Position numbers and translations under genes: made by a program
The notes under the pieces: generated by a model
Told to the model about the DNA's origin: nothing
Seen by the model: the letters and a program-made list of their open reading frames with translations, nothing else
Databases searched by the model: none
Origin: Salisediminibacterium beveridgei
GTDB lineage: Bacteria; Bacillota; Bacilli; Bacillales; Salisediminibacteriaceae
DNA: 64,000 nucleotides
Reading direction: 5' to 3'
Assembly: GCF_001721685.1 (NCBI RefSeq)
Contig: NZ_CP012502.1
Span: forward strand, 3,162,001-3,226,000
Shown: positions 57,610 through 60,130 of the stretch, in pieces
Layout of the letters: each line of letters starts with the position of its first letter
Numbering within the stretch: position 1 is the stretch's first letter

Positions 57610-57981
57610 ATGACTCAACTGGATACCTGCGAGATCTACCAATACGATCAGGAAAAGGTCAGCGCCGCAAAAAAAGCCTTGGCGCAGTCCCCTATACAAT
57701 TCGCCGCGAACCTCTTTAAAGCATTAGGTGAAGAGAACCGGGCAAAAATTGCCTATGCGCTCTGTCATAATGATGAGCTCTGCGTCTGTGACCTGGCGAA
57801 TATTATCGACGCTACAGTCGCCACAACTTCTCATCACTTAAGAACGTTGTATAAACAGGATATCGTCAAATTCCGCAAAGAAGGAAAGCTCGCCTTCTAC
57901 TCGTTGGATGACGACCACATCCGACAGCTTGTGATGACTGCTCTTGAACATGCCAAAGAAGGGGTGAACGCTCATGGGTGA
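57610..57981 (+). CDS. cadC: Cd/Pb/Zn-responsive ArsR-SmtB repressor CadC
   Basis: The 123-residue repressor has the CadC metal site: an N-terminal Cys in DTCEIYQYD and the paired Cys of ELCVCDLANI in the alpha-3 helix region, with winged-helix text VATTSHHLRTLYKQDIV. It represses cadA until Cd, Pb or Zn binds. The ATG at 57610 is nine bases after GGAGG; two earlier ATG codons are too close to it. Its stop overlaps the cadA start by 8 bp. Confidence 0.93.
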   Translation: MTQLDTCEIYQYDQEKVSAAKKALAQSPIQFAANLFKALGEENRAKIAYALCHNDELCVCDLANIIDATVATTSHHLRTLYKQDIVKFRKEGKLAFYSLDDDHIRQLVMTALEHAKEGVNAHG

Positions 57982-60130
57982 ACCAAGACTTGATAACACT
58001 GCAAAATCTGTTCAGATAAGCCATGCCACTTATCGTATCGAAGGATTATCCTGAGCGATTTGTGCCGAAACGTTCGAAAAGAACGTGAGACACCTGGAGG
58101 GTGTCTCTGATGCGAAAGTGAATTTTGGAGCAGCAAAATTAACCGTATCCGGTGAAGCAACCATCGATGAACTTGAAAAAGCAGGGGCATTCGAAGGGAT
58201 CCGCGTCCGCCCGGAACACGGTCAACCAGAAACACCGGTTTCATTTTGGAAGCAAAAAGCAAACTGGAATGTGTACGCGTCGATTGTTTTACTGATCACT
58301 TCCCTTCTGTTTGCCGGAGTCGCAGGTATGGATCACCCCGCCACTACCATTGGCTTTTTGCTGGCCATCATCCTAGGCGGCTACTCCCTTTTTCAAAAAG
58401 GCTTCAGAAACCTTGCAACCTTCACTTTTGATATGAACACGCTCATGACCATTGCTGTCATTGGCGCAGCTCTCATTGGTGAGTGGGTGGAAGGTGCTGT
58501 GGTTGTCATTTTGTTTGCCATCAGTGAGGCCCTTGAACGTTTTTCCATGGACAAAGCCCGGCAATCAATCTCATCACTCATGGCTATTGCGCCAAAAGAA
58601 GCACTCATTAAACGTCATGGTGAAGAACGGTCTGTTCACGTGTCGGATATTCAAATCGGTGACGTGATGATCGTCAAACCTGGACAAAAGCTTGCCATGG
58701 ATGGCGTTGTAATAAGCGGGCTCTCCACAATCAATCAGGCCGCGATCACCGGGGAAAGTGTCCCGGTCACAAAAGACATCGCAGATGAGGTCTTTGCCGG
58801 CACACTCAATGAGGAAGGGTTCCTGGAAGTCGAGGTGACCAAGCGGGCAGAAGACACAACCATCGCAAAAATTATTCACCTGGTAGAAGAAGCACAGGCC
58901 GAGAAAGCACCGTCTCAAAAATTTGTAGACCGCTTTGCGGCCTATTACACACCAGCTGTGATTGTTCTTGCGATTCTCGTCATGACCGTTCCCCCGCTTA
59001 CAATGGGGGCTCCTTGGGACCAGTGGATTTACCTCGGCCTCGCCACATTAGTGGTAGGATGTCCATGTGCGCTCGTGATATCGACACCCATTGCTGTCGT
59101 CACGGCCATCGGGAATGCAGCAAGAAACGGCGTTTTGATCAAAGGCGGAATCCACTTGGAGGAAGCAGGTGGTCTGAAGGCGATTGCGTTCGATAAGACC
59201 GGTACATTGACGATGGGCACACCTGCCGTCACCGATATCATCACCTTCAGCCGTGCTGAACACGATTTGCTCTCGCTTGCGGCTTCGTTGGAAAAAAGCT
59301 CGCAGCATCCACTTGCTTCAGCCATTATGCGAAAAGCAAAAGACGAACAGATCGCCATCCAGGACGTGTTTGAGTTTCAATCGATCACCGGCAAGGGTGT
59401 CGCCGCCCGCATCGACGATGTCCGTTACTATGCCGGCAGCCCTGATTTATTTACAGAGTTGAACATCGAGCTGACCGCTTCTTCCGCAGAAATGATTGAT
59501 CAGCTTCAGACAGACGGAAAAACCGTCATGGTCTTTGGAACCGATCTGGGGATTGAAGGACTCATTGCTGCAGCAGATGAAGTAAGGCCTGTTGCGAAAA
59601 GCGTCATACGTGACTTAAACCAGATGGGGATCGACACCGTGATGTTAACCGGTGACAACGAGCGAACCGCCACAGCAATCGGAAAGCAGGCAGGCGTTAC
59701 AGAAGTGGAATCAAAACTTCTGCCGGAAGATAAACTGAATCACATTCACAGACTCCGTGAAGGAAAGAAACACATTGCCATGGTGGGTGACGGCGTCAAC
59801 GACGCACCTGCACTCGCAGCAGCGAATTTAGGAATTGCCATGGGCGGGGCCGGGACGGATACAGCTCTTGAAACGGCAGACATCGCGCTCATGTCTGATG
59901 ATCTGTCGAAACTGCCCTACACCGTTTCCTTAAGCCGAAAAGCTCTGCGCATCATCAAACAGAACATCTCATTTTCCCTTGGGCTGAAGGCACTGGCTCT
60001 GCTCCTGGTGATTCCCGGCTGGCTCACATTATGGATTGCCATTCTGGCAGATATGGGCGCCACCCTGCTCGTCACGGCCAACAGTCTCCGTCTCATGCGA
60101 AACGACAAGAAGCACCCCGACCATTACTGA
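57974..60130 (+). CDS. cadA: Cd/Zn P1B-type ATPase with predicted selenocysteine in the HMA metal-binding motif (in-frame TGA)
   Basis: Starting at the ATG at 57974 (GGGGTG upstream, overlapping cadC) and reading through TGA at 58052-58054 gives 718 residues, the usual CadA length. The TGA is codon 27, in YRIEGLS-U-AICAETFEKNV. CadA proteins have GFTCxxCA here, so the TGA replaces the first metal-binding Cys, giving U-x-x-C. Homology continues on both sides (EGVSDAKVNFGAAKL). The rest is canonical: TGES, CPC (VVGCPCALV), DKTGTLT, QHPLAS and GDGVNDAPALA. Hairpins of SECIS type follow the TGA. Otherwise a start at GTG 58085 would give an HMA-less ATPase. Confidence 0.9.
58070..58086 (+). promoter_or_regulatory. 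Candidate bacterial SECIS hairpin in cadA
   Basis: Perfect 6-bp stem ACGTTC/GAACGT closes a GAAAA loop that begins 21 nt after the TGA, with G in the first position. A second perfect 8-bp hairpin (58087-58107, loop TGGAG) follows at once; its loop begins 40 nt from the TGA, slightly beyond the usual limit. Confidence 0.65.

Follow-up and report, generated by a model that had tools for sequence, protein, structure and literature searches.

The window, by which we mean the whole 64,000-nucleotide stretch of Salisediminibacterium beveridgei DNA under analysis, contains on its plus strand a gene for a P1B-type heavy-metal ATPase (57974 to 60130), here called Sec-CadA, and just upstream of it a gene for a CadC-like regulator of the ArsR/SmtB type (57586 to 57981). 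The pump gene begins with an ATG at 57974, downstream of AAAGAAGGGG, that overlaps the stop codon of the regulator gene (TGA, 57979 to 57981). Its frame holds a single internal TGA, at 58052 to 58054, and when that codon is translated as selenocysteine (U) the product has 718 residues, with the predicted selenocysteine at residue 27. The surrounding sequence, GLS-U-AIC-A, places U on the first cysteine of the CxxC motif of an HMA domain, and the domain model PF00403 spans the site (residues 19 to 69; 36.5 bits against a cut-off of 24.8, with U written as C). The original prediction had described a CadA-like frame interrupted by a TGA at exactly this cysteine and restored to full CadA length by reading through it, and both parts of that description are borne out.

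The predicted protein passes the curated cut-offs of TIGR01525 (P1B heavy-metal ATPases; 609.3 against 346.25 bits) and TIGR01512 (cadmium-family P-type ATPases; 522.1 against 313.5 bits). Its best relative in the PDB is the zinc-transporting ATPase ZntA (4umv; E = 1.9e-147), a pump of the CadA/ZntA (P1B-2) kind, which it matches over residues 12 to 710, the CPC motif included. A lysine and an aspartate in the last helices of the two proteins align by eye and presumably have a functional role in P1B-2 pumps. Sec-CadA differs from these pumps in the selenocysteine predicted in place of the first HMA cysteine and in falling below the cut-offs of two ZntA-type curated models, NF033775 (598 of 1240 bits) and NF008262 (PRK11033; 666 of 1005 bits).

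The regulator carries the motif ELCVCD, scores 87.9 bits with NF033788 (cut-off 55) and has the cadmium efflux accessory protein CadC (1u2w) as its best PDB match (E = 2.6e-43). Its coordinates are counted from a TTG at 57586, a later ATG being also possible as the start. The protein has a glutamine where many relatives have a second N-terminal cysteine; loss of this cysteine was considered as a trait of selenocysteine loci and rejected, since it was scored at 12 of 38 Sec loci and 7 of 36 Cys loci, with no clear link.

The genome, a single contig of 3.58 Mb, encodes a tRNA-Sec with a TCA anticodon (63.4 bits; cut-off 47), selB (347.6 bits; cut-off 242) and selA (533.5 bits; cut-off 268), all three side by side. 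The selD gene lies in the window itself (41201 to 42277, plus strand; TIGR00476, 401.5 bits against 125) and, as had been proposed, has a TGA at the codon for its catalytic cysteine (41273, in AG-U-GCK); its true start is probably the ATG at 41210. Two fdhA-like genes of the genome (788.8 and 215.7 bits, the one over and the other under a cut-off of 666) also have in-frame TGA codons, within RT-U-H and RI-U-H, and downstream of these lie hairpins whose loops read GGUCU. Elsewhere in the window, a modA-like gene (54985 to 55774) that follows a Moco riboswitch (54767 to 54917) appears to be split over two frames, the segment from 54985 to 55479 matching only positions 1 to 124 of the 227 of PF13531; the split seems to be a frameshift or an error.

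The UGA codon among related pump genes

To place the codon in context we searched 100 genomes, that of S. beveridgei included, and, out of 107 listed matches extending to the HMA domain, read the corresponding codon in 90 (76 genomes). The codon was TGA in 41 genes (own gene included), TGT in 36 and TGC in 13. It was never TAA or TAG, and no other stop was found inside the gene body of any of the 90, the extra stops that do occur sitting at the C-terminal end. Chance is ruled out by this recurrence of TGA at one codon in the absence of other stops there or in the gene body. Outside the count are 17 of the 107 listed matches beginning at or before query residue 21, of which 16 list no internal stop; one left-out match (40% identical) lists four. 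Three named related loci, taken from genome contigs, consisted of one TGA gene (in Alkalicoccus urumqiensis, a repeat of locus L053) and two Cys genes. A sample of the phylum, for which 299 genomes were searched, added 29 loci, 20 of them with TGT or TGC and nine with TGA, the latter from other classes of the phylum. This count is of match rows with loci; among the rows without, seven cover the HMA domain and list a TGA. Altogether, TGA genes number 50 with that of the window.

Among the 100 genomes, selB was over its cut-off in 64 and tRNA-Sec was present in 63. All but one of the 41 TGA genes (40) belong to genomes with selB, the exception being L085, from a genome (G034) that is 76% complete, whereas the 49 Cys genes are divided between genomes with selB (27) and without it (22); Fisher's test gives p = 1.5e-6 on these genes, which are related and not independent. 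Counted by genome, 38 of the 76 have both Sec-type CadA and selB, one has the former alone, 17 have selB alone and 20 have neither. With the gene tree taken into account, independent pairs averaged 6.1 for the association, 0.5 against it and 9.4 tied (median p = 0.07), and the link is then weak and one-directional. In the phylum sample, selB accompanies nine of nine TGA loci and 17 of 20 Cys loci (26 of 29 overall) and thus does not discriminate between the two. Four genomes have Sec and Cys versions of CadA together. Two observations on tRNA-Sec may be added: one genome (G065) has a Sec-type CadA (L062) and selB with no tRNA-Sec at E = 1e-8, which reflects a draft gap, a strict filter or a divergent tRNA, and another (G083) has two tRNA-Sec matches about 5.5 kb apart.

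Substitutions between 12 close pairs of TGA genes bear on translation across the UGA. The pN/pS ratio is 0.13 in the nine codons before the UGA and 0.30 in the twelve after it, and from the low value on the upstream side we infer that this part is very likely translated. Meanwhile, pS drops across the UGA from 0.57 to 0.24, the pattern expected of an additional layer of information, so the downstream part likely carries a signal.

Hairpins downstream of the UGA

Two hairpins follow the UGA on the plus strand. Hairpin 1 (58070 to 58086), ACGUUC-GAAAA-GAACGU, is a candidate SECIS element (z = -3.1). The original prediction had a hairpin with a G-first loop starting 21 nucleotides after the TGA; the G-first loop, GAAAA, does lie at that distance (58076), and the stem begins earlier, at 15 nucleotides (58070). 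Hairpin 2 (58087 to 58107), GAGACACC-UGGAG-GGUGUCUC, had no place in that prediction and is the stronger of the two (MFE, -14.1; z = -3.9).

Bacterial SECIS elements are described, in a 2026 review (PMC13188914), as having a loop of 3 to 9 nucleotides, a stem of 4 to 16 base pairs, a G in the first two loop positions and a distance of 16 to 37 nucleotides from the UGA, with an MFE of -7.5 kcal/mol or lower and a loop in which G is mostly followed by G or U. Hairpin 1 has the consensus geometry (a loop of 5, a stem of 6, G first, 21 nucleotides from the UGA); its MFE alone is -6.2 kcal/mol against the published limit of -7.5, and its loop has GA, not the usual GG or GU. The loop of hairpin 2 does contain GG, but it is 40 to 41 nucleotides away from the UGA. 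The 56-nucleotide region after the UGA folds with an MFE of -21.6.

By a sequence rule we split the 41 TGA genes into group A (25, the window's gene among them), which have two hairpins after the UGA, and group B (16), which lack hairpin 2 and have a single hairpin whose loop, GGUUC or AGUUU, matches the published consensus. In group A, 96.7% of cells pair, and cells with double changes number 12, as compared with 1.7 in shuffles (reached in 0 of 500). Four pairs have double changes, a number that shuffles reach in 12 of 500, and further pair types show no excess over shuffles (427 of 500). The double changes affect both hairpins: in hairpin 1, pair 21-33 goes from GC to AU in three of the 25 genes, at two wobble positions, and in hairpin 2, pair 41-51 goes from AU to GC, likewise in three of 25, where a change of codon from His to Arg is paired with a wobble change in a Gly codon. 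Group B, in which 99.1% of cells pair, also has cells with double changes in excess of shuffles (0 of 500); its pairs with double changes, two in number, do not exceed the shuffled result (235 of 500).

Comparison with synonymous re-codings points the same way for each hairpin. The mean z of hairpin 1 is -3.46 in the 25 group A genes and -0.27 in the 49 Cys genes; that of hairpin 2 is -2.63 in group A, -0.01 in group B and -0.11 in Cys genes; and that of the group B hairpin is -5.66, against -0.14 for the same stretch of the 49 Cys genes. The contrast is weaker for the whole 54 nucleotides, whose fold has z below -2 in 24 of 41 TGA genes (and above it in the other 17) and in 4 of 49 Cys genes. 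In all 25 group A genes the leucine codon over the loop of hairpin 2 has G in its third position (CTG in 24, TTG in one); of the 49 Cys genes, six have CTG or TTG at the corresponding site. On visual inspection, eight of the nine TGA genes of the phylum sample have one longer stem whose upper part is similar (of the GUUU/C-GAAAA type). In our reading of these sequences, hairpin 1 would be the SECIS element and hairpin 2 an accessory, either being a candidate for the binding of SelB. As a separate observation, a Cys CadA gene (L118) from a genome without a selB match (G361) keeps a SECIS-like hairpin; the same gene has an in-frame TGA at a tryptophan position shortly before the CPC motif, which is either a nonsense mutation or an error.

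Exchange of predicted selenocysteine and cysteine

We built a gene tree from the pump core of 120 genes, leaving out the HMA domain. On this quick tree, which is without bootstrap, changes between Sec and Cys number at least 20 overall and 15 on well-supported branches. One pair of loci is extreme. L025, on a 7.3-kb contig of genome G023, has UGA, and L022, on a 4.68-Mb contig of genome G006, has UGU; the genomes are those of two species of one genus, and selB is present in both. The two loci have a block of 4358 bp in common that is 99.66% identical, with ten differences (nine substitutions and one 6-bp indel), nine of which fall within 112 bp around the UGA/UGU codon (p of about 5e-14 for the clustering, the window of 112 bp having been chosen after the fact). 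Because L022 retains both hairpins in spite of its UGU, it resembles either a gene that formerly encoded Sec or the recipient of a patch; no donor of such a patch was found among the fetched loci.

The block also holds cadC, a metallochaperone of the CopZ N-terminal type (over its cut-off) and an ACR3-like transporter whose SBF domain is over, but whose acr3 score is under, the respective cut-off, and a transposase-like gene lies about 6 kb from the block in G006. Loci L139 and L140 of G023 and G006 represent a near-identical cadC–cadA–metallochaperone–ACR3-like block in two species. A 155-residue neighbor in the G023/G006 block is of the Cys-Cys form; it is over the cut-off of NF047645 and under that of the sister (seleno)protein model NF045877.

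We tentatively suggest, as possible rather than probable, that mobile metal-resistance operons gain and lose the selenocysteine of CadA as a fast-switching trait, in which UGA and UGY at one metal ligand would have been swapped repeatedly, at least once by replacement of a patch of about 110 bp within an otherwise almost identical operon, and that insertion in the lineage of the window would rely on a tandem SECIS of a new kind, made up of two hairpins that covary.

Selenocysteine as a predicted metal ligand

We propose, with a probability of about 0.85, that the locus encodes a CadA-type pump in which the UGA at 58052 is decoded as selenocysteine, so that a selenolate and a thiolate (U-x-x-C) would stand at the metal site where relatives have two cysteines. 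Taken by itself, the presence of selenocysteine in the protein, as the original prediction held, is very likely, because the machinery, the conservation of the codon, the covariation of the hairpins and the selection on both sides of the UGA all speak for it. That Sec27 would act as a metal ligand and not as a redox residue is probable to a lesser degree.

In P1B-2 pumps the CxxC motif of the HMA domain binds Zn, Cd or Pb and the CPC site carries out transport. In the proposed mechanism, SelB and Sec-tRNA would bind the hairpin or hairpins just downstream of the UGA, and selenocysteine would be inserted at residue 27. With Sec27 and Cys30 as ligands, the HMA domain would then bind a soft divalent metal, whether Cd, Zn, Pb or Hg, and would hand it to, or regulate, the transmembrane CPC site for ATP-driven export. 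The pump gene would be controlled by the CadC-like repressor, whose own gene lies immediately before it and overlaps its start. A selenolate in place of one thiolate may alter metal affinity, as the original prediction suggested, and would be expected to prefer soft metals and to be oxidized more rapidly. Pumps can often do without their HMA domains, however, and the selenocysteine may therefore matter little for transport.

Selenocysteine might instead be inserted and the U-x-x-C serve as a redox switch, or as a thiol-peroxidase-like site, that gates the pump. Such a role would be in keeping with the statements of two articles that the majority of selenoprotein families in prokaryotes are regarded as redox proteins (PMC9312934) and that U-x-x-C recurs in redox families (PMC13188914). 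Here, however, the motif occupies the metal site of the HMA domain, in a pump gene that has a CadC-like gene within the fetched stretch at 80 of the 90 loci (by tblastn), and it alternates with plain CxxC at least 15 to 20 times on the tree; a redox role thus appears doubtful to us, if deserving of serious consideration. Less likely is that the UGA is a selenium-dependent expression switch, yielding full-length pump only with selenium, and that the chemistry of selenocysteine is neutral. A UGA read only with selenium acts in this way by construction, and Cys versions are common even where selB is present, making up 27 of 67 genes, but the confinement of the change to one residue of the metal motif would suggest that the residue itself matters.

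In the protein database, the window's gene and its two nearest relatives appear in a shorter form, of 681 residues in the case of the window (58085 to 60130, plus strand), that begins at the position of the GTG at 58085 and is without the HMA metal motif. This is what would be expected if the UGA were a real stop, with a shorter pump made from the GTG at 58085 or by re-initiation. We consider this highly improbable: purifying selection acts on the codons upstream of the UGA, no other stop accumulates in the 90 genes, TGA is linked with selB, GTG occurs at the codon equivalent to 58085 in only 17 of the 41 TGA genes, and visual inspection shows no apparent ribosome site ahead of 58085. The 681-residue form is likely a mis-annotation. 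Finally, sequencing error or a pseudogene can be dismissed, as independent genomes have the same TGA (49 genes in other genomes).

We return to the reading of Sec-CadA as a U-x-x-C pump. The original prediction knew of no described selenoprotein CadA, but UxxC ATPases were already on published lists of predicted selenoproteins, and the window's gene is thus a very well supported member of an already predicted kind. The UxxC ATPase family counts as one of the top 20 selenoprotein families of bacteria, with 32 selenoproteins from 25 organisms (PMC5029168, Table 3), and has one entry in PMC2398784; one published account credits Zhang and Gladyshev (2007) for the predicted UxxC P1B ATPase. Transporter selenoproteins are grouped with resistance to heavy metals or metalloids in the 2026 review, which states that their precise roles need study; a term search of its main text returned no mention of Bacillus, Bacillota or Firmicutes (PMC13188914). 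In the literature searched, mostly without subscription papers, we found no experimental work on a Sec CadA, which is no proof of absence.

Compared by description, the published selenoprotein cation-transporting ATPase of the E1-E2 type (UxxC; ABB15669.1) is likewise a P1B ATPase with a predicted U-x-x-C, and the window's gene has the features of that family: a P1B ATPase, a UGA at the first cysteine of a CxxC with Cys homologs, and selenocysteine machinery in the genome. It differs from the published example in belonging to the Bacillales, in its overlap with cadC, in the hairpins of its relatives and its own (at least two architectures, one a tandem pair) and in the recurrent exchange of Sec and Cys. 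A weaker likeness is to the UxxU metal-binding (seleno)protein NF041115, which has an HMA-like metal motif with selenocysteine (E = 7.8e-6); that model, unlike Sec-CadA, is a 74-position profile of a small protein, and Sec-CadA is far under its cut-off (26 of 95 bits). New, as far as we have searched, are the breadth within the Bacillales, the covariation of the hairpins, the tandem architecture, the 15 to 20 or more Sec/Cys changes and the 4.36-kb block in UGA and UGU versions. Since gene calling dropped the metal motif in the three nearest database entries, the family of UxxC pumps may be under-counted.

Should Sec27 bind metal and not serve in redox chemistry, this would represent a little-tested role for selenium. 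If the trait is indeed fast-switching, selenium would tune the first metal-binding site of the pump according to the local supply of selenium and metal. The near-identical natural UGA and UGU alleles offer a rare chance to test why an organism uses selenocysteine over cysteine.
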